IMG/VR virus record: IMGVR_UViG_3300008999_000034
Coordinates: 1-24,810 of that record
Direction: 5' to 3' (one strand)
Source: a virus
DNA length: 24,810 bases
Made by a program: the position numbers and the translations under genes
In this document: piece by piece, positions 1,520 through 14,862 of the stretch
Numbering within the stretch: position 1 is the stretch's first letter
Layout: every line of letters begins with the position of its first letter
Notes under the pieces: generated by a model
What the model was told of the DNA's origin: nothing
Seen by the model: only the letters and a program-made list of their open reading frames with translations
Database searches by the model: none

Positions 1520-3262
1520 ATGGCAGAATCATTAATCTCCCCAGGGGTACTATCAAGAGAGCAAGATAGATCTTTTATTGCTCCCGCTCCATTAGAAGCT
1601 GGTGCAGCTTTTATAGGGCCAACAGTAATCGGACCAGTAGAAGAACCAACAGTGGTTACTTCATACGGTAGCTACCAAAGCAAATTTGGTGTTACTTTCG
1701 AGTCTGGTTCTAACAAATACGAATTTTTAACCTCACTAGCAGTTAAGTCCTACTTTGAGCAAGGAGGTAACTCAGCATTGATTACTAGAGTAGTAAACGG
1801 TTCCTTCACTGGAGCTTCTAACTCTACAATCGCTTCAGCAGATGCAGGTACAGCGCCATTCACTATCCAAACTTTAGGAAAAGGAGCTATACTTAATAAC
1901 TCTACAGGAGCAGGAGATGCAGGAGCACAAAATAGCGACGGGTCACTAGTTGACGGTAGCGCAGAAAATATTAGATGGGAAATCGGTAACGTTGACGCAA
2001 AGAACGGTACATTCTCATTATTGATCAGAAGAGGAGATGATAATTTAAGTCAAAAGACAGTACTTGAATCATTCAACGATCTTAGTTTAGATCCTAATTC
2101 AGAAGGATACGTTGCTAAAATTATTGGAGATCAGTATAAGTCTAAATCAGTAGATGGTGGACAGACTTATATCTCTACAAAAGGATCATATGTAAACAGA
2201 TCTAACTACATTAGAGTAGCATCTGTAGACAGACAAACACTTAATTACTTAGCTAACGATGGAGTTTCAGTAAGAACAGCAGCATACACTGGTTCTTTAC
2301 CGGTAGCATCTTCTGGATCTTTCCACGGAGCAGCAGGTAATTTATATCAATCAACTGAACCTAACAAACATTTCTCAGAAATTTCAGCTGGAAATACACA
2401 AGGTTTAGAAGCAGCAGATTATTCGGATGCTATTTCAATTTTAACTAACCAAGACGAATACGTTTTCAATATCGTTTCTGCTCCAGGATTAATTTATTCA
2501 TTCGGAGATCATAAAACTCAATTAGATGCAGTTATTTCATTAGCATCTAATAGAGGAGACAATATTGCAGTAGTAGATTTATCTTCATATGGAACTTCAG
2601 TATCTAATGCAGCAGGAAATGCAGCATCAGTTAATAGTTCTTATGCAGCTACTTACTGGCCTTGGCTACAAATGCAGTCTTCAACTGGCAAGTTAGAGTT
2701 CGTTCCTGCCTCAGTTGTAATTCCAGGTGTATATACATTCACTGACGGAGCTGCAGCACCATGGTTTGCACCAGCTGGTTTAACTAGAGGTGGAATATCA
2801 GATGTAATTCAAGCAGAAAGAAAATTAACTAGATCTCAAAGAGATACATTATATAGTGCTAATGTTAACCCAATCGCTACATTCCCAGGAAGTGGAATAT
2901 CAGTATTCGGTCAAAAGACATTACAGAAGAAAAAATCAGCACTAGATAGAGTAAATGTTAGAAGACTATTAATTGACCTTAAGAAATTCTTAGGAGATCA
3001 AGCTAAATCATTAGTATTCGAACAAAATACAATTGCAACAAGAAATACATTCTTGTCTAACGTTAATCCTTACTTAGAATCAGTGGTACAGAGACAAGGT
3101 CTTTATGCTTACAGAGTAGTAATGGACGACACGAATAACACCGCAGACGTAATTGACAGAAACCAATTGGTAGGGCAGATATTTATTCAGCCTGCAAAAA
3201 CAGCGGAATTCATTACACTTGATTTCGTAATCTTACCAACAGGTGCAACATTAGGTGAATAA
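1520..3262 (+). CDS. Tail sheath protein (gp18-like)
   Basis: This 580-residue protein is the contractile sheath subunit, which polymerises around the tail tube and shortens to drive it through the host envelope. The N-terminus S-P-G-V-L-S-R-E-Q-D is the classic sheath start. The last third carries the conserved sheath C-terminal domain: V-N-V-R-R-L near residue 478, then a helix with F-L-G-D-Q-A-K-S-L-V-F-E, the G-L-Y-A-Y-R-V-V-M-D segment, N-T-A-D-V-I-D and Q-I-F-I-Q-P-A-K-T-A-E-F-I near the end. The middle, about residues 90-400, is Ser/Gly/Ala-rich and variable, as expected for the surface-exposed insertion domains. Length is slightly under T4 gp18 (659 residues). It is followed 38 bases later by the tube gene, the usual sheath-tube pair. 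Confidence 0.95.
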   Translation: MAESLISPGVLSREQDRSFIAPAPLEAGAAFIGPTVIGPVEEPTVVTSYGSYQSKFGVTFESGSNKYEFLTSLAVKSYFEQGGNSALITRVVNGSFTGASNSTIASADAGTAPFTIQTLGKGAILNNSTGAGDAGAQNSDGSLVDGSAENIRWEIGNVDAKNGTFSLLIRRGDDNLSQKTVLESFNDLSLDPNSEGYVAKIIGDQYKSKSVDGGQTYISTKGSYVNRSNYIRVASVDRQTLNYLANDGVSVRTAAYTGSLPVASSGSFHGAAGNLYQSTEPNKHFSEISAGNTQGLEAADYSDAISILTNQDEYVFNIVSAPGLIYSFGDHKTQLDAVISLASNRGDNIAVVDLSSYGTSVSNAAGNAASVNSSYAATYWPWLQMQSSTGKLEFVPASVVIPGVYTFTDGAAAPWFAPAGLTRGGISDVIQAERKLTRSQRDTLYSANVNPIATFPGSGISVFGQKTLQKKKSALDRVNVRRLLIDLKKFLGDQAKSLVFEQNTIATRNTFLSNVNPYLESVVQRQGLYAYRVVMDDTNNTADVIDRNQLVGQIFIQPAKTAEFITLDFVILPTGATLGE

Positions 3263-3300: not shown

Positions 3301-3786
3301 ATGGCAGTATTAGATCCTAACGAAATAATGTTCAGAGCTTTCGAACCGAAAGTCCAAAACAGATTTATCATGTATATTGATGCAATTCCATCATTCATGA
3401 TAAAAAACGTCAAAGCACCTACGTTTACAGACAACGTAGTAAAGCTAGACCATATAAATTCATACAGAAAAATTAGAGGAAAGAGAGAATGGGCAGAGAT
3501 GACTATGACTCTATACGATCCGATAACTCCAAGTGGAGCACAAGCCGTAATGGAATGGGCAAGACTAGGATACGAATCAGTAACTGGTAGAGCTGGATAT
3601 TCAGATTTCTACAAAAAAGATTTAACTCTTAACGTATTAGGTCCTGTAGGGGACGTAATTGGAGAATGGATCATTAAAGGTGCATTCGTTACAAACGGAG
3701 ACTTTGGTCAATTTGACTGGTCTTCTGATGCAGTAGTTGATTTAGGAATTACAATCAACATGGATTACTGTATATTGAATTACTAG
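3301..3786 (+). CDS. Tail tube protein (gp19-like)
   Basis: This 161-residue protein forms the inner tube through which DNA passes. Its length nearly equals T4 gp19 (163 residues). The N-terminal half reads as a tube fold: N-R-F-I-M-Y-I-D near residue 20, I-P-S-F-M-I-K-N-V-K-A-P, then the tube-specific W-A-E-M-T-M-T-L-Y-D-P-I-T-P-S-G-A-Q near residue 62. The C-terminus carries W-I-I-K-G-A-F and a final strand with D-L-G-I-T-I-N-M-D-Y-C. Position directly after the sheath and before the assembly protein and tape measure genes is the canonical order. It ends at TAG, the only TAG stop in the window, just before a strong terminator. Confidence 0.93.
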   Translation: MAVLDPNEIMFRAFEPKVQNRFIMYIDAIPSFMIKNVKAPTFTDNVVKLDHINSYRKIRGKREWAEMTMTLYDPITPSGAQAVMEWARLGYESVTGRAGYSDFYKKDLTLNVLGPVGDVIGEWIIKGAFVTNGDFGQFDWSSDAVVDLGITINMDYCILNY

Positions 3787-3813
3787 GAATAAAATACTTT
3801 ATTATATATTAAG

Positions 3814-3838
3814 AAGCCCCCTTGTGGGGCTTTTTTTT
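3814..3838 (+). terminator. Rho-independent terminator after tail tube gene
   Basis: AAGCCCC pairs perfectly with GGGGCTT (7 bp) around a CTTGT loop and runs straight into eight T. It is the strongest terminator in the window and lies 28 bases after the tube stop. It probably closes the sheath/tube transcripts and keeps their level apart from the downstream assembly genes. Confidence 0.92.
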
Positions 3839-3909: not shown

Positions 3910-4674
3910 ATGGAAAATCAAGTAAAAAAGGCAGAAAAGCCTAAATTTCAAATCCCTACCGAACAGGTAGACATTCCATCTAAAGGTAAGTTATACCCAT
4001 CCGATCACCCTCTGGCCAGTGGTAAAGTCGAAATGAAGTATATGACTGCCAAAGAGGAAGATATCTTAACGAATCAAAACTACATTGAAAAAGGAGTAGT
4101 AATTGATAAGTTATTACAATCACTAATCGTATCAGATTTCAACTACAACGATTTACTTATTGGAGACAAAAATGCAATTATGGTTGCAGCACGTATATTA
4201 TCTTACGGTAAAGATTACGATATTCAATATAACGGTAAAGATATTACAGTTGATTTAACTGAAATCAAAGATAAAGAGTTAGATTTCGATAGTCTTGAAC
4301 AAGGACAGAGAGAGTTTACTTTTGGACTACCTAAAAGTGGTAATGAAGTAACTTTTAAACTTCTTACTCATGGAGATGATAAAAACATTGACAGAGAAGT
4401 AGAAGGACTAAAGAAAATCAACAGAGAAAGTAGCGCTACACTATCAACTAGAATGAAGTACATTATTACTTCAGTAAATGGAGATAGAGAGGTATCTACA
4501 ATAAGACAGTTTGTTGACCAAGGGCTATTAGCTCAAGATGCAAGAGCATTGAGAGAAGAATACGCAAGAGTACAACCAGATGTTGAATTTAAAGTCTACC
4601 ATGTGGATGAAGACGGTGTTGGGGAGGACATCGACGTCCCTGTGACGATCAACTTTTTTTGGCCTGACGCCTAA
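3910..4674 (+). CDS. Tail/baseplate assembly protein, gp26-like (zero-frame product)
   Basis: This 254-residue protein resembles the T4 gp26 baseplate family (T4_baseplate). The N-terminus has I-P-S-K-G-K-L-Y-P (22-30), followed by a K-V-E-M-K-Y-M-T-A-K-E-E-D-I-L segment (about 39-54), and a helix with I-D-K-L-L-Q-S-L-I. These are the hallmark blocks of the family. T4 gp26 is 208 residues, so this one is a little longer. Residues about 130-235 hold the second, charged domain. Gene position between tail tube and tape measure is exactly where long-tailed phages encode their tail assembly chaperones, which are commonly made in short and frameshifted long forms. Here the last codons contain seven T, and the +1 frame after it stays open for 87 codons (next entry). 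The zero-frame stop TAA is at 4672-4674. No Shine-Dalgarno is visible; the leader is A/T only. Confidence 0.8.
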   Translation: MENQVKKAEKPKFQIPTEQVDIPSKGKLYPSDHPLASGKVEMKYMTAKEEDILTNQNYIEKGVVIDKLLQSLIVSDFNYNDLLIGDKNAIMVAARILSYGKDYDIQYNGKDITVDLTEIKDKELDFDSLEQGQREFTFGLPKSGNEVTFKLLTHGDDKNIDREVEGLKKINRESSATLSTRMKYIITSVNGDREVSTIRQFVDQGLLAQDARALREEYARVQPDVEFKVYHVDEDGVGEDIDVPVTINFFWPDA

Positions 4675-4924
4675 CGCTGCTGCGGAAACGCGAAGCAGAT
4701 TATTTCGGCAAATACACGACATAGTATTTCATGGTAAAGGTGGCTATGACTGGCATACTGTGTATAACATGCCGATATGGTTAAGAAGATTAACTTTCAA
4801 CTATATTAACGAGTGGTATAAAGAGCAAAACGAAGAAAACGAAAGCGCTCAACAACAAACCACAGATAATAGACCAAAAGGACCGGATATTTCTCCATCC
4901 TATAGCACAACGGCTTCTAAATAA
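4646..4924 (+). CDS. Frameshift-expressed C-terminal domain, gp51-like
   Basis: This +1-frame region has no usable start before its conserved part: upstream it is closed by TGA at 4643-4645, and the first ATG (4769) lies in the middle of the recognisable domain. It joins the gp26-like gene if the ribosome shifts +1 (or -2) on the seven T at 4654-4660, giving N-F-F-G-L-T-P-N. The fusion would be 337 residues (250 + 87). The extension contains F-H-G-K-G-G-Y-D-W, then Y-N-M-P-I-W-L-R-R-L-T-F and I-N-E-W-Y, a block I recognise from the short proteins that follow gp26 in T4-like genomes. In T4 genes 26 and 51 are adjacent. The last 30 residues are Gln/Asn/Ser/Thr/Pro-rich and probably disordered. 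A homopolymer sequencing error is the main alternative. Confidence 0.72.
   Translation, partial: RSTFFGLTPNAAAETRSRLFRQIHDIVFHGKGGYDWHTVYNMPIWLRRLTFNYINEWYKEQNEENESAQQQTTDNRPKGPDISPSYSTTASK
4654..4661 (+). promoter_or_regulatory. Candidate programmed frameshift site (T7-G)
   Basis: In the zero frame the codons read AAC TTT TTT TGG. If tRNA-Phe in the P site slides from 4657-4659 to 4658-4660, the next codon becomes GGC and the long +1 frame opens. A -1 shift would end almost at once at a TGA (4665-4667), so only +1 or -2 is productive. Transcript slippage on seven T is also possible. Confidence 0.65.
4677..4698 (+). other. GC-rich RNA hairpin just downstream of the frameshift site
   Basis: CTGCTGCG pairs with CGCG-(AA)-GCAG around a GAAA tetraloop: eight pairs, one of them a T-G wobble, with a two-base AA bulge. 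It begins two bases after the zero-frame TAA and 16 bases after the T run. In this AT-rich genome such a GC-rich stem inside a coding region stands out and could stimulate frameshifting. Confidence 0.5.
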
Positions 4925-4938
4925 TTAGGAGCCTTTGC

Positions 4939-4962: not shown

Positions 4963-7900
4963 ATGGCGGAAGAAAAAGATCCCCTACAAGGTAACGAAGG
5001 AGCTACACAAGCACGTATAGATCAATTAAAAATGATCAATAGGGAAGGAGCGCAAGCTAAAGCAGCTCTTGAAGGGTTAGCTGGTGCCTTTAAGAATCTT
5101 GGAGCAGCCGATGCTGTCTTCGCCGAACGCGCAGTTAAGTCTAGTAATGAGATAGCAGGACAAGTAAAAAACTTTAGTAAATCATATAAAGATAATATTG
5201 ATCTTGCTAAAAAACTTTCTGGTTTTACTACGAACCAGCTAAAAGATACAAAAACACGTAATGCTTTTGAAAAACAGGTACTCAAAGCTGAAGCAGAACA
5301 AGCATCAGTACAGGCACAAAAAGCCGAGCTAGCAGAAAGAGCAGAAGTACTCGGTCGAGAATTATACGCGAATGAGGTATCTCTTTTAGAACAGATTAAA
5401 CAAGTTGTTTTAGCTGAAGAACAAGTTATAGCTGCTAAACAACAACAAAAAGACATATCTAAAGATGCGGAGGCTCAACGAAAAACAGCTTCTGATGCAG
5501 CATTTGAATCTCAAAAGAAGAGTGAAGACTTATCAAAGCAAATAGCTTTACTATCCAGCAAGGAAGGATTAAAAGCTTTTGAACAATCAAAAGGGGCAAA
5601 AGCAACACAAGGTGAGTTAGTTAAAATAATAAATCAGAAAAAAGCACAGCTAGCTGCTGAACAAGATAATATAAAAGCTCAATCGGAGCAAATGGAAGCT
5701 GCTGAAAAAATGAAAACTGACGCTTCCAACGTAGTAAAATCGGCAGAAGATAAGCTTAAGGTAGAAAAAGCAGTAGCAGAAGCATTAGAAGAACAGCAAG
5801 AAGACTTATCAGCTCAGGTAATTACCACTGATATGATGGTTGAAAACCTTAGCAAAGCAGCTCAAGAGATAGAAAATGGTTTAAACTATGCTCAAGGATT
5901 ATCTACTGAAATAGAAAAAGTAAATAATGCCACTCCAAAATTTATAGAAGCATTTGAGAAATTTGGAGCTGCTGCATCTGGTATACCTATTATAGGTAGC
6001 GCAATTAGCTTCTTAACTGGTGGTATATCGGAGGCTTCTAAGAAGTTTAAAACACTAAAAGCAGAAGGAAAAGGAGCAGGAGAAGCGGTTAGAAAAGCTT
6101 TTGGAGGATTTGTATTTGCAGGACTTACAGCTGCATTAACAGCATTCATTTCTTTAGCAGTTGATGGAGCCAAAAAGTCTTCTGAAGCTGTAGTAACATT
6201 AAATAAGAGCGTTGCTGGATCGATGGTAAATATGCAAGCTCAGATGAGTCGAGTTTCTGCAGCAGCCGGAAAATTTAGTGTACCTTTAAATGAAGCTGCC
6301 GCTACAATAGCAGGAATAAATGATTCTCTTGGTACGTCTTTAGACTTTACCAAAGAAACTACAGAACAAGCTATTAAGTTAGCAAATAAATACGGAGTAT
6401 CTGTTGATGCCGTAGCTCATATAGTTAAAAATTCAGCAGCGAATAAAAAGACAATGACTGAGACTGTTGATGCAGTCACAGCAGGAGTAGCTAGGTTTAA
6501 TGAGATGAATAACGTCTCTATAAGTACTAAAGCTATTTTCGAAGATATAGGTAAAGCCTCTGCCACAACTTTAAGAGGCATAGGGAAACAACCTGGAGCA
6601 TTAGCAGCAGCCGCTGCAGCAGCAAGATCGTTAGGTATGTCAATGGAGGACATAAGAGCTGCATCTGAATCAACAACAGACTTCCAGAAAAGTTTAACTG
6701 ATGAAATGACTACTGAGATGATGCTCGGTAAACAGTTAAACTTAAATAAATTAAGAGAAGCAGCTTTAACAGGAAATGTAACTACACAGGCCGAAGAAAT
6801 GAAAAGGCTTGTTATGGAGAACCAAGGAAGAATTGGTAATAACGTAAAACTTCAAGAACAGTTTGCTGCTACATTAGGTATCACAAGAGACCAATATAAT
6901 GATATTATAAAAAACGGTGAGGCCCTATCTACTTTAACTGAAAAATCAGGAGCAGCAGAAGAAGCAAACGGCAAAGCTAGAAAAATGTCTCAAGAAGATA
7001 TTGCTAAATCTGTAGAAAAAACAACCGGCAAGTTAACTTCTTTAGGAGACAAAATTGCAAAGTTCCAAGAAAACATGGCTCTTGGAGCAAATAGTTTTGC
7101 CTCAGATATAATTGACGGTTTTGACGATGGATTCATGGCTGGTATGTCAAATATCGGGAGTATGATGTGGGATGAAATATCTAAAGCTTTTGAAGAAGGC
7201 TTTGACTATTTTAAATCTGGTTCAAACGTAGGAAGATTTTTAGGAGTTTTAGCAGTTGGAGGAGGAGCAGCAATAACATTTAAAGCTGCAAAAGGTGTTT
7301 TTAGCGGGATTAAAAGTTTCTTAGGACTAGGTTCTAATAAACCTACAGGTAGCGCAATGGATCCTATTCATACCGTAAGTGGAGGAATGAATGCCGGAGA
7401 TCTTACCCAATCTTTAGGTAAAGCGGGGTTCTTTAAACAGGTAAAAACTTTATTTAAAAAGCCTCAAGTGTTCTTTAGAGCATTGAAAATGAAAGGTGGC
7501 TTCTTAGGTAAACAAATAGGTAGATTTGGAACGATGTTCTCTAAAATGAAACTTCCAAATCTTACTAAGATATTCTCTAAAATAAAATTACCTAATTTAG
7601 GTAACATTTTCTCTAAACTTAAATTTCCTTCAGGAGCAGCTAGTGGTATATTAAAAACCGTAGGGGGTAAGATATTAGCACCATTAGAATTAGCAATGGG
7701 TGCTTTTAAAGGTGTTAATCAAGTTAAAGATTTAACTGCTGAACAAAAGAAAGAACAAGGTATCCGAGAGGATATGGGCGTAGTTGAAGCCGGCGTCTTA
7801 GGTGCTTTAACTGGAGGAGCTGAAAAAGGCTCGATGTTTAGTGAAAAATTAGGTATAGAGAAAGGCGGTGCAGGAGATGAAGCATTAGGTATTGCTTCTG

Positions 7901-8997
7901 CAGGTGCTAGAGGTGCAATGACAGGAGCAGCTATTGGTTCAGTTATTCCTGTGGTAGGTACAGCTGTAGGCGCAGCTGTTGGTGGAGCAATAGGGTTAAT
8001 ATCAGAAGGGTTTAAAGTATTCTCAGACCCTAATTCTACACTTAGAAAAGGAGTAAGCGAGTTTGCAACTGCTACTTGGGATAAAGCTAAGGAGATAGGT
8101 AATAAAGTTAAAGAAGGTGCCATTATGGTAGGCGCCAAAATTAAAGACTTTGCTGTAGGTGTTAAAGACAAAGCTGTTGAAGTAGCAGGTAGAATGAAAG
8201 ACTTTGCGGTCGGAGTAAAAGATAAAGCATTTGCATTTGCCTCATCTGTCGGAGAAGGTATATCTAACTTTGCAACTTCAGCAAAAGACAAAGCAGTCGA
8301 ATTAGCCAGTGCAGTAGGTGAAGGTATATCTAACTTTGCAACTTCAGCAAAAGAAAAGATTGGAGCATTTGCCAGTACTGTAGGTGCAGGAGTAGCTAAT
8401 TTTGCTAGTACTGCTAGAGACAAAATCGCAGGTTTTGCTTCATCTATAGGAGAAGGCGCATCTAAAGTTGCTAGTAAGATAGGAGACTTCATATCAGAAA
8501 GTGGAGGTTTTGCAAATGCAGTTGGAGCAGCCGCTCGTGGATTAGCTTCTAAAGCTAAAGATATGCTAGGTAAAGCATGGAAAGGTGTTAAAAACTTTGT
8601 CGGAATGGGTGATAAAACTAAATCAGCATCCCCAGAGATCAAACAGAAAGAAATTAAAAAGGTTACTGCACCGTTAATGCAAATGTCTAAAGATCAAGCT
8701 AAGACATTCACTACAGCTATTAATACTGCGATAGAAAAGAGTACTAAAGGTACTGTTAAAGCGATGGATAGTTTAGGAGATGTATTAGAAAATCCTTTAG
8801 GAGAAAATGCAAAAGCAGCAAACAATCAATTAGTAGAGCTAAAGAAATTAAAAGAATCAAGTGATAAGCAACATTCAAAAGAATTACTAGAACTTAGAAA
8901 TCAAACATTACTACTATATCAATACATAAAATCACCGCAGAAAAATATAATAAAAATGAACACTTTCAAAGTCGGTCAATCATTAACAAGAGTATAA
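4963..8997 (+). CDS. Tape measure protein
   Basis: This 1344-residue protein sets tail length and fills the tube until DNA ejection. The first 310 residues are nearly continuous Ala/Glu/Lys/Gln-rich coiled coil. Around 380-400 there is a hydrophobic stretch (F-V-F-A-G-L-T-A-A-L-T-A-F-I) that could cross the host membrane. About 985-1017 is a second Ala/Gly-rich hydrophobic stretch with a glycine-zipper look. Residues 859-890 hold 12-residue repeats and 1059-1176 hold about five 22-residue amphipathic repeats. The C-terminus returns to coiled coil (L-V-E-L-K-K-L-K, then L-L-E-L-R-N-Q-T-L-L-L). Length, helicity, membrane segments and position after the assembly protein support the call, the functional counterpart of T4 gp29. 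ATG 4963 is the first in-frame start after the gap. Long antisense frames here are composition effects. Confidence 0.92.
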   Translation: MAEEKDPLQGNEGATQARIDQLKMINREGAQAKAALEGLAGAFKNLGAADAVFAERAVKSSNEIAGQVKNFSKSYKDNIDLAKKLSGFTTNQLKDTKTRNAFEKQVLKAEAEQASVQAQKAELAERAEVLGRELYANEVSLLEQIKQVVLAEEQVIAAKQQQKDISKDAEAQRKTASDAAFESQKKSEDLSKQIALLSSKEGLKAFEQSKGAKATQGELVKIINQKKAQLAAEQDNIKAQSEQMEAAEKMKTDASNVVKSAEDKLKVEKAVAEALEEQQEDLSAQVITTDMMVENLSKAAQEIENGLNYAQGLSTEIEKVNNATPKFIEAFEKFGAAASGIPIIGSAISFLTGGISEASKKFKTLKAEGKGAGEAVRKAFGGFVFAGLTAALTAFISLAVDGAKKSSEAVVTLNKSVAGSMVNMQAQMSRVSAAAGKFSVPLNEAAATIAGINDSLGTSLDFTKETTEQAIKLANKYGVSVDAVAHIVKNSAANKKTMTETVDAVTAGVARFNEMNNVSISTKAIFEDIGKASATTLRGIGKQPGALAAAAAAARSLGMSMEDIRAASESTTDFQKSLTDEMTTEMMLGKQLNLNKLREAALTGNVTTQAEEMKRLVMENQGRIGNNVKLQEQFAATLGITRDQYNDIIKNGEALSTLTEKSGAAEEANGKARKMSQEDIAKSVEKTTGKLTSLGDKIAKFQENMALGANSFASDIIDGFDDGFMAGMSNIGSMMWDEISKAFEEGFDYFKSGSNVGRFLGVLAVGGGAAITFKAAKGVFSGIKSFLGLGSNKPTGSAMDPIHTVSGGMNAGDLTQSLGKAGFFKQVKTLFKKPQVFFRALKMKGGFLGKQIGRFGTMFSKMKLPNLTKIFSKIKLPNLGNIFSKLKFPSGAASGILKTVGGKILAPLELAMGAFKGVNQVKDLTAEQKKEQGIREDMGVVEAGVLGALTGGAEKGSMFSEKLGIEKGGAGDEALGIASAGARGAMTGAAIGSVIPVVGTAVGAAVGGAIGLISEGFKVFSDPNSTLRKGVSEFATATWDKAKEIGNKVKEGAIMVGAKIKDFAVGVKDKAVEVAGRMKDFAVGVKDKAFAFASSVGEGISNFATSAKDKAVELASAVGEGISNFATSAKEKIGAFASTVGAGVANFASTARDKIAGFASSIGEGASKVASKIGDFISESGGFANAVGAAARGLASKAKDMLGKAWKGVKNFVGMGDKTKSASPEIKQKEIKKVTAPLMQMSKDQAKTFTTAINTAIEKSTKGTVKAMDSLGDVLENPLGENAKAANNQLVELKKLKESSDKQHSKELLELRNQTLLLYQYIKSPQKNIIKMNTFKVGQSLTRV
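7537..7635 (+). repeat. 12-residue tandem repeats in tape measure gene
   Basis: Three consecutive units: FSKMKLPNLTKI (7537-7572), FSKIKLPNLGNI (7573-7608) and a shortened FSKLKFPSG from 7609. The DNA copies differ at several third positions, so the repeat is kept at protein level rather than being a fresh duplication. Confidence 0.85.
8137..8490 (+). repeat. 22-residue amphipathic repeats in tape measure gene
   Basis: Units of the type (S/A)NFA(T/S)(S/T)A(K/R)(D/E)K(x)3(F/L)AS(x)(V/I)GEG(x) recur about every 66 bases, preceded by two related KDFAVGVKDKA units. The 22-residue spacing is two 11-residue helical turns, similar in layout to LEA and apolipoprotein repeats. One 35-base segment is exactly duplicated at 8254-8288 and 8320-8354, exactly 66 bases apart, so part of the array was duplicated recently or is kept alike by recombination. 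Confidence 0.85.
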
Positions 8998-13536: not shown

Positions 13537-14862
13537 GTGTTTTATATAGTAGAAGAAGAGAGTAAATTACAGTCAATAGAGAATCTAGTTAGATTAGGTT
13601 GCTACGTAAATGTAGTATCAACTAATGACTTATACCATCCAAAGCTTACTTCATCAATAGCAGTCTACATAAGATTACTGAAATCCGATTACGGATACAT
13701 CATTCCTATAGATCACCCAGAAGGATTAAACGTAGATAAAGAACGGGTCTACCAACTTCTTCTGAAAGCAAACACACTGTATACATTAAATAAGAAAGAG
13801 CTGCTCTATCACTTTAATCTACAGGAAGCTATAGATATTTCATTGCTTTATGCTATGACAAAATACGATAAGTTAGAGTACACTAAAGAGAATAGCTCAC
13901 TAAACTACTTTTATAATAAATTTCAGAAACATAAAGAGGTAAATAAGTTAATTCCTATTTCTAAGCTTTACGAAGCTAATGAAAATATATATAAGCAAAT
14001 TAAACCAGTATTGAATATTGCAATACCTAATGGCTTTGATTTTTATAATAAAACTGCTACTAATGTTTTCTATTTACTAGAGCACGGAGGTTTAGGAGTA
14101 TATTATGATGAGTTTAATAAAATATTTACCCCTAGAAACCCACTATACAACACAGATAATAACACAGTACTAACTTCATACAATTTATACAATGCTACTT
14201 CTAGACCTACTAATGCTTTTAATTCTGTTAATTTTGCTGCTATACCTAAGACTCCCGAGCATAGAAAGACCTTTCGACCGACCGGTGATTACTTTGTTGA
14301 GTTTGATTTTGACGGTTATCATTTGCGCTTACTTTGTGAGCAAATTGGGTATAAACTTACCGAAGCATCAGCTCATAAGCAACTAGCTACCCAATACTTT
14401 AATAAAGAACATATAACAGAAGAAGAATATGACCAAGCTAAACAAATTAACTTTCACGCAATTTATGGAAAGATACCAGAAAAGTATGCTTTCCTTGAAA
14501 TCTTTACAAGAATTGATGATTATATCAAAGAGTTATGGAAACGATACAAAGATGACGGAGAAGTCCTGGCACCAATTAGTGGAAAGCCTTTCACAAGCTC
14601 GCTTAAGGGAATGAACCCACAGAAGTTAATGAATTATGTTATGCAATCATTAGAAACTTCTAGAAATATTAATATACTTAAAGCAGTCTTTAAATACCTA
14701 CAGGGTAAAAAATCTAAAGCTGTACTTTATACCTACGATTCAATTCTTTTCGACTTTTCTAAGGAAGACGGAAAGGACCTATTAAACGACTTAGAACAAA
14801 TACTATCTGAAAACGGGAAATACCCAGTAAAATTCAAGTTCTCAAAGAATCTGGTTTTATGA
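13537..14862 (+). CDS. Divergent compact family A DNA polymerase
   Basis: This 441-residue protein copies phage DNA. The GTG start at 13537 is the likely one, since no ATG lies near. The C-terminal 240 residues hold the PolA motifs in order: T-S-R (R233, as Pol I R668), motif A F-D-F-D-G-Y-H-L-R with D257, motif B A-K-Q-I-N-F-H-A-I-Y-G with K302, F306 and Y310, N376/Q380 (as N845/Q849), and motif C L-Y-T-Y-D-S with D401. Both catalytic Asp are present. Pol I E710 is His262, R754 is Tyr298 and the motif C H-D-E reads Y-D-S. Residues 1-190 look like a worn DnaQ-type fold without a recognisable D-x-E exonuclease motif, so proofreading is probably absent or supplied elsewhere. Typical PolA enzymes exceed 600 residues. 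It replaces the family B gp43 expected in a T4-like replisome. Confidence 0.85.
   Translation: MFYIVEEESKLQSIENLVRLGCYVNVVSTNDLYHPKLTSSIAVYIRLLKSDYGYIIPIDHPEGLNVDKERVYQLLLKANTLYTLNKKELLYHFNLQEAIDISLLYAMTKYDKLEYTKENSSLNYFYNKFQKHKEVNKLIPISKLYEANENIYKQIKPVLNIAIPNGFDFYNKTATNVFYLLEHGGLGVYYDEFNKIFTPRNPLYNTDNNTVLTSYNLYNATSRPTNAFNSVNFAAIPKTPEHRKTFRPTGDYFVEFDFDGYHLRLLCEQIGYKLTEASAHKQLATQYFNKEHITEEEYDQAKQINFHAIYGKIPEKYAFLEIFTRIDDYIKELWKRYKDDGEVLAPISGKPFTSSLKGMNPQKLMNYVMQSLETSRNINILKAVFKYLQGKKSKAVLYTYDSILFDFSKEDGKDLLNDLEQILSENGKYPVKFKFSKNLVL

Follow-up and report, generated by a model that had tools for sequence, protein, structure and literature searches.

We report here that a single gene of an uncultured T4-related virus very probably yields a short and a long tail assembly chaperone by a +1 programmed ribosomal frameshift. 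The gene was found in positions 1 to 24,810 of the IMG/VR virus record IMGVR_UViG_3300008999_000034, read as one strand and hereafter called the window. Its frame 0 runs from an ATG at 3910 to a TAA at 4672-4674, while a second frame, displaced by +1, is open from 4646 and stops at 4922-4924. The two frames share the sequence AAC TTT TTT TGG CCT GAC GCC TAA, in which seven T occupy 4654-4660 and frame 0 reads TTT (4654-4656), TTT (4657-4659) and TGG (4660-4662). Joining the frames by +1 gives 337 residues with the junction NFF-GLTP. The -1 frame reads TTG GCC TGA after the site and thus meets an immediate stop, whereas a canonical -1 site X_XXY_YYZ calls for a -1 frame that stays open. No ATG, GTG or TTG stands upstream of the conserved GGYDW block in the window's open +1 frame. 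An initial annotation of this DNA had already noted both frames, their overlap at 4646-4674, the seven T, the -1 stop and the missing start codon, and all of these were confirmed by direct reading.

The frame-0 protein matches the T4_baseplate family PF12322 with 28.2 bits (cut-off 24.5) and phrog_150 with an E value of 2.4e-10. The gene order is tail tube, chaperone gene and tape measure, within a T4-related tail cluster that also carries the sheath. Because the gene sits between the tail tube and the tape measure, it is most likely a tail assembly chaperone.

Relatives were collected from IMG/VR with the frame-0 protein as the query of the scan, using six peptide patterns none of which touches the site, so that the selection was made by protein similarity alone. 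From at least 600 relatives, the best 80 (55-77% identical in the best segment) form the main set; together with the window they make 81 genes, 74 of which share less than 90% identity with one another. In every one of the 80 relatives the +1 frame stays open across the site, and none has the two parts fused in frame. The site TTT TTT TGG CCTGA is exact in 77 of them, the three exceptions being TTT TTT TTC CCTGA (L028), TTT CTT TGG CCTGA (L041) and TTT TTT TAC CCTGA (L069); the A-site codon is accordingly TGG in 78 relatives, TTC in one and TAC in one. Where not cut by a contig end, the extension is 79-113 codons long. Among the 74 genes, each of the 14 site bases is 97-100% conserved, compared with third codon positions that differ pairwise at about half of the sites. 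Within GGCCTGA, positions +6 to +10 are invariant, and +4 and +5 are conserved at 97%. A separate nucleotide signal in GGCCTGA need not be invoked, since both frames code there (WPD in frame 0, GLT in +1) and since (Y/W)PD persists in frame 0 of two relatives with an own start for the second half (L425 and L430).

The window contains the 14-mer TTTTTTTGGCCTGA a single time, none of 100 dinucleotide shuffles contains it, and it also serves as a marker of the gene. Among 120 listed IMG/VR matches to the exact 14-mer, 113 are the chaperone gene, with both halves matching the profiles, one is cut by a contig end and six are unrelated. The CTT variant TTTCTTTGGCCTGA is less specific, as 46 of its 120 listed matches are the chaperone gene, one is cut by a contig end and 73 are unrelated. 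A third form, TTC TTT TGG CCTGA, was seen in 14 of 20 loci in a scan with LR756508; the remaining six comprise two with TTT TTT TGG, the two with a separate second gene (L425, L430) and two incomplete ones. The initial annotation had proposed the T run, the overlap and the lack of a start codon as features to be sought in related genomes. The overlap and the exact site are conserved as described, but the T run is broken in the CTT and TTC variants, and a start codon is lacking in only 30 of the 81 genes.

The arrangement extends to bacterial bins and to isolated phages. Eight loci were found in bacterial bins, and the +1 arrangement is kept in all seven that could be assessed; variants there are TTT TTT TTC CCTGA in L437 and, after TGG, CCT TC in L441 and CCT CA in L442. 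Six of the eight bins are named as Bacteroidota groups (Winogradskyella, Flavobacteriales twice, Flavobacteriaceae, Saprospiraceae and Sphingobacteriales), and two only as 'bacterium', suggesting that the hosts of the +1 clade are likely Bacteroidota. Bacteroidota make little use of Shine-Dalgarno (SD) pairing. Eight of 12 matched phage records were examined (one of four immuto records, one of two from Stenotrophomonas, and six others). The hosts of isolates with the +1 arrangement are Flavobacterium, Microcystis and Rhodothermus. RM378, Mel-JY01 and immuto carry the +1 site as UUU_UGG or CUU_UGG, and LR756508, LIS04 and GXN1 fit a +1 shift at other UUU contexts, with sites assigned by eye. 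A scan of viral contigs with GXN1 gave one locus. In Flavobacterium phage immuto (L082 6866-6976), the existing annotation has a short hypothetical protein in place of the extension, starting late within it.

The extension evolves as protein, and it does so in the +1 frame only. In 90 pairs at 75-99.9% identity, the ratio of nonsynonymous to synonymous rates (dN/dS) is 0.21 for frame 0 and 0.25 for the extension read in +1; the other two readings of the extension give 1.25 and 1.81. For 943 deeper pairs, with identities of 65-75%, the ratio is 0.44 in +1 versus 1.09 and 1.75 in the other frames. Codon positions 1, 2 and 3 of the extension in +1 differ at 0.38, 0.30 and 0.53, a coding-like pattern. 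Both parts of the gene are therefore under purifying selection.

We further compared the two halves with gp26 and gp51 of T4 and with cyanophage gp51. PF12322 matches T4 gp26 with an E value of 5.2e-63 and residues 1-201 of T4 gp51 with 3.9e-52, after which 48 residues follow; phrog_150 and phrog_634 (hub assembly catalyst) cover these last 48 residues nearly to the end. Judged by these matches, T4 gp26 and gp51 are one family in a short and a long form. The initial annotation had described the two T4 genes as separate and adjacent; two corrections to this are that the neighbours lie on opposite strands and that gp51 is itself a gp26-family protein with a C-terminal extension. Only about the last 50 residues of T4 gp51 correspond to the second frame of the window, and in S-SCSM1 and Cygsa01 a gp51 of 54-57 residues lies directly 3' of gp26. 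With a wide set of 198 rows of +1-joined proteins, 112 of which were used after the program's filter, hhalign aligned the +1-joined proteins with -1-joined cyanophage proteins and T4 gp51 over 280 columns (probability 98, E value 1.6e-13), and the alignment crosses the junction, placing NFFGLT opposite SFFRIAL. A profile of the extensions alone matched a gp51-type profile with probability 93.5 and an E value of 2.2e-7. On account of these matches of the joined protein and of the extensions, the extension can be called gp51-like, where gp51 means the cyanophage protein and, for T4, the C-terminal part only. The extensions of GXN1 and LIS04 match the wide profile weakly (E values 1.4e-4 and 7.1e-5, probabilities 53 and 63). 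The RM378 extension matched neither profile, so its assignment follows from frame and site alone. Searched by itself, the extension found no meaningful family in Pfam (to E 10), PHROGs (to 0.001) or NCBIfam (to 1, with one chance-level match).

The extension was modelled as three helices with a mean predicted local distance difference test (pLDDT) score of 81, its end being less certain. Foldseek matches included viral T4-type hub proteins, for example that of Bacillus phage SP-15 (E value 4.1e-17), and among solved structures the HK97 tail assembly chaperone 2ob9_B ranked first, with an E value of 0.68 and a probability of 0.60, below significance. VIA-align ranked YqbN 3klu (Z 5.9, root-mean-square deviation 8.7) and HK97 2ob9_B (Z 4.2, deviation 4.5) at the top, with 95 residues aligned in each case; Z scores of this size may mean a common arrangement only. 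The predicted fold thus agrees with the chaperone assignment and proves nothing.

We infer the shift itself, its frequency and the roles of the two products as follows. The majority of ribosomes would stay in frame 0 and make the short form of 254 residues. A fraction would slip by +1 at UUU_UUU_UGG_C, when peptidyl-tRNA(Phe) occupies the second UUU, and re-pair with the overlapping UUU, so that GGC would be decoded in place of UGG and a long form of 337 residues, with a mostly helical tail of 87, would result. If the analogy with lambda gpG/gpGT holds, the portion common to both forms would coat the tape measure protein, and tube subunits would be recruited by the extra tail of the long form. 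A +1 slip from UUU or CUU onto UUU is possible in all three natural forms of the site, and because TTT CTT TGG and TTC TTT TGG interrupt the T run, a P-site slip at [U/C]UU_U is favoured.

Several observations weigh against this proposal. No strong RNA structure emerged from folding two downstream stretches (60 and 90 nucleotides) and 60 nucleotides upstream in 74 relatives (mean z -0.93, -0.67 and -0.70; z below -2 in 10, 8 and 6 of the 74), and these folds offer no clear candidate for a structural stimulator. An SD-like tetramer in the 18 nucleotides 5' of the site is absent in 62 of the 74 and present in 12, and an SD stimulator was likewise set aside. UGG, the A-site codon, is not the rarer one, being used at 10.8 per 1000 codons versus 4.8 for GGC in the 18 open reading frames (ORFs) of the window; this codon use lends no support to a simple account by a slow or 'hungry' A-site codon. 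In two other of these ORFs, [C/T]TT TGG occurs in frame, so that the codon pair alone is not the whole signal. In addition, 51 of the 81 genes carry an ATG, GTG or TTG upstream of the block within the open +1 frame. A profile built from the nearest relatives only did not match T4 gp26 or gp51, and its match to the cyanophage proteins was weak (E value 0.02); the T4 match required the wide set.

An alternative view, which needs no frameshift, takes the extension for a separate protein whose translation begins within the gp26-like gene or beyond it; some cyanophages are annotated in this way. We regard this as improbable. Versions with an own start do exist (L425, L430, Cygsa01 and S-SCSM1), and the start codons of the +1 genes often lie within the gp26-like part. 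However, the 30 genes that have none before the block include the window, the positions of the others vary (the commonest, a TTG 18 bases 5' of the first +1 codon, is found in 21/81), and an SD-like tetramer precedes a start in only 11 of the 81. Between the site and the block, 68 of the 80 relatives lack a start codon, and what is conserved among these relatives is the shift site, not a start. With starts missing from so many genes, varying in place and seldom accompanied by an SD-like tetramer, separate initiation cannot be the shared mechanism, and may yield an extra product in some genes. Relatives of which the second half has its own start had been named in the initial annotation as evidence to the contrary; L425 and L430 are such cases, but in the tree they nest among the +1 genes, and in both of them the +1 frame closes five codons beyond the stop.

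Other explanations turn on the seven T. A -2 shift would reach the same frame as +1 and join the halves as NFFF-GLTP, and at CTT the -2 codon TTC pairs not much worse than the +1 codon TTT; yet in the 14 loci with TTC TTT TGG a -2 shift is offered only UCU, whereas +1 is offered UUU, and the CTT variants fit the known +1 site CUU_U. A -2 shift is thus highly improbable. The join of gp26-like and gp51-like parts by +1 or -2, as initially proposed, is supported by conservation and colinear homology, and it leans clearly to +1 because of the UCU offered at TTC TTT TGG and because CTT TGG presents a P-site of the release factor 2 type. RNA polymerase slippage, by which part of the mRNA would carry six or nine T, is suggested by the homopolymer at the overlap; we hold it to be extremely improbable, as the run shrinks to three T in the CTT variants and to four in TTC TTT TGG, with the same open +1 frame. 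To a sequencing error or a decayed gene, with an intact fused gene in the true genome, we assign next to no probability. Homopolymers are error-prone, and a single contig could not exclude an error, but the same frame relation holds in every one of the 80 relatives with none fused in frame, both parts are under purifying selection, and the CTT and TTC forms with their open frame speak against a read error in a homopolymer. A +1 ribosomal shift accordingly remains the reading that we prefer.

The main known case of a programmed +1 frameshift in bacteria is that of release factor 2, in which the shift is driven by a stop codon together with a Shine-Dalgarno element. The conserved site of this autoregulatory +1 shift is CUU_U; a few species have UUU_U instead, which is much less efficient (Atkins 2016, PMC5009743). 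The gene described here resembles prfB in its P-site, CUU_U or UUU_U, and differs from it in having UGG instead of UGA in the A site and, in most relatives, no upstream SD-like tetramer. The +1 site of yeast Ty1 and ABP140 is CUU_AGG_C, with GGC as the next codon and a slow AGG codon (Atkins 2016, PMC5009743). CUU_UGG_C is one base apart from it and shares the sense A-site codon and the +1 codon GGC; unlike here, where no slow codon was seen, the yeast system is eukaryotic and uses the slow AGG. [U/C]UU_UGG_C thus combines the P-site codons of release factor 2 with the A-site arrangement of Ty1.

Tail assembly chaperones of the lambda gpG/gpGT type are produced by programmed frameshifting (Atkins 2016, PMC5009743), as Xu reportedly described in 2004. 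Like gpG/gpGT, the gene lies between tube and tape measure, would give a short and a long product with a shared N-terminus, has the overlap near its 3' end and carries an extension with no conserved start of its own. Unlike the lambda type, which is mostly -1 at X_XXY_YYZ, the shift here would be +1 at [U/C]UU_UGG_C, and a ribosome shifting by -1 there would reach a stop within three codons. The lambda proteins gpG and gpGT are absent from mature virions, G-T frameshifting is described as conserved in long-tailed phages 'except T4', and the G-T gene of the haloarchaeal myovirus HSTV-2 is 'very likely' +1 (Atkins 2016, PMC5009743). Going by that description, HSTV-2 is likewise a myovirus with a very likely +1 tail chaperone, but an archaeal one. 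Table 2 of PMC3004832 gives T4 gp26 and gp51 as chaperones of hub assembly. The N-terminal part of the product described here is of the same family, and the joined protein is colinear with the gp51-containing profile, but T4 has two same-family genes on opposite strands where the window has one gene, presumably frameshifted.

The family appears to make the pair in other ways as well. In a set of 80 cyanophage relatives (L335-L414), of which 78 were assessed and two (L385 and L400) left out as incomplete, the -1 frame is open in all 78, at T_TTT_TTC in 74, T_TTT_TTG in two and T_TTT_TTA in two, so that the same F-F codon pair would be used in the opposite direction. A -1 frameshift in these gp26/gp51 overlaps is likely on these sequences; a start codon precedes the conserved block in 77 of the 78, which is compatible with separate initiation. 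A cyanophage overlap is also seen at L211 2974-3684; S-CAM8 has no annotated gene there, and S-SCSM1 lists gp51 separately. Tail chaperone overlaps with -1, again opposite in direction to the +1 here, are described for Vandenendeviridae (PMC12846349). A -1 shift is likewise consistent with the sequences of RAS14, LR756511 and Vibrio phage Bakedbeans. In the large-genome relatives RAS14 and LR756511 (L087 2929-3783; L090 around 3771), the apparent -1 shift falls at T-rich sites in the same place. Finally, in L425 and L430 the second half is a gene of its own with a longer leader; counted from the first base of the stop codon that ends the first half, its ATG lies 5 and 8 bases further downstream.

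A tree of 57 N-terminal parts, with 200 bootstrap trees and a root for drawing only, places L425 and L430 inside the +1 clade beside genes with the CTT site. T4 gp26 and gp51 are sisters in 98% of the bootstrap trees, on the cyanophage -1 side. The mode of expression changes six times on this tree, against a possible minimum of three and a shuffled mean of 15.2. The tree program warns of long branches for T4 gp51, RAS14, RM378, LR756511, T4 gp26, Bakedbeans, Cygsa01 and one more, and the joins of T4 gp26 with gp51 and of Bakedbeans with Cygsa01 may be false, with long branches meeting. For this reason we call a gene duplication in the T4 line likely and no more. We further speculate, with about even confidence, that a sense-codon +1 shift at [U/C]UU_UGG_C, with no stop codon, SD element or RNA structure, is standard in a large uncultured T4-related clade, mainly of Bacteroidota, that the family has swapped +1, -1, coupled cistron and duplication, and that T4 gp26/gp51 are a remnant after the frameshift was replaced by duplication.

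Parts of this picture are known. According to PMC10885494, which cites Vladimirov, Gautam and Davidson 2022, some T4-like phages have one short and one longer fused gene instead of frameshifting, and PMC12846349 cites Vladimirov 2022 for poly-T -1 signals. The chaperone identity of the T4-like proteins and the T4 two-gene pair were thus already published (Vladimirov 2022), and the initial annotation was right to tie gp26/gp51 to the tail chaperones in general, a connection that was already in print. In the literature searched at the level of titles, abstracts and passages, which did not cover the text of Vladimirov 2022, we found no description of a +1 shift in the gp26/gp51 chaperone family, of its site, of the CTT and TTC forms or of the nested loss. 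As far as searched, the +1 mode, its site and its breadth are new.

The features of the locus and its neighbours are collected in Table 1.

Table 1. Chaperone gene, shift site and neighbouring features in the window.
Feature	Position	Strand	Remarks
Frame-0 product, 254 amino acids (aa)	3910..4674	+	putative short tail assembly chaperone, T4 gp26-like; PF12322, phrog_150; AlphaFold2 mean pLDDT 91
Shift site TTTTTTTGGCCTGA	4654..4667	+	proposed P-site TTT 4657-4659 would re-pair at 4658-4660; then GGC 4661-4663
Open +1 frame	4646..4924	+	extension of 87 aa coded by 4661-4921; homology to cyanophage gp51 and to T4 gp51 (C-terminal part)
Predicted long product, 337 aa	3910..4924	+	by +1 frameshift; colinear profile match to -1-joined cyanophage proteins and T4 gp51
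Tail sheath	1520..3262	+	phrog_23, E 4.1e-70
Tail tube protein, upstream neighbour	3301..3786	+	phrog_4542, E 7e-20
Tape measure protein, 1344 aa, downstream neighbour	4963..8997	+	phrog_167, E 6.2e-5
Terminator-like hairpin between tube and chaperone genes	3811..3835	+	2 found in region; shuffles mean 0.8, standard deviation 0.9

The hairpin between the tube and chaperone genes carries a T run, so that the chaperone gene may be a separate or attenuated transcription unit; a weaker second terminator-like hairpin at 4912-4933 overlaps the stop codon of the extension. A 441-aa ORF with a GTG start at 13537-14862 resembles by eye the C-terminal part of a family A DNA polymerase, and it has no PHROG match at E 0.001. 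No tRNA genes were found in the window.

The finding would correct annotation: of six annotated isolate records inspected, four (immuto, Mel-JY01, RAS14 and RM378) give the extension as a hypothetical gene, either short or separate, and two (LIS04 and GXN1) have no gene there. If true, this simple and deeply conserved sense-codon +1 site, with 198 distinct extensions, would be a clean natural system for forward ribosome slippage. It would also make testable how a protein pair holds its ratio as its coding switches among +1, -1, two cistrons and two genes of the same family.
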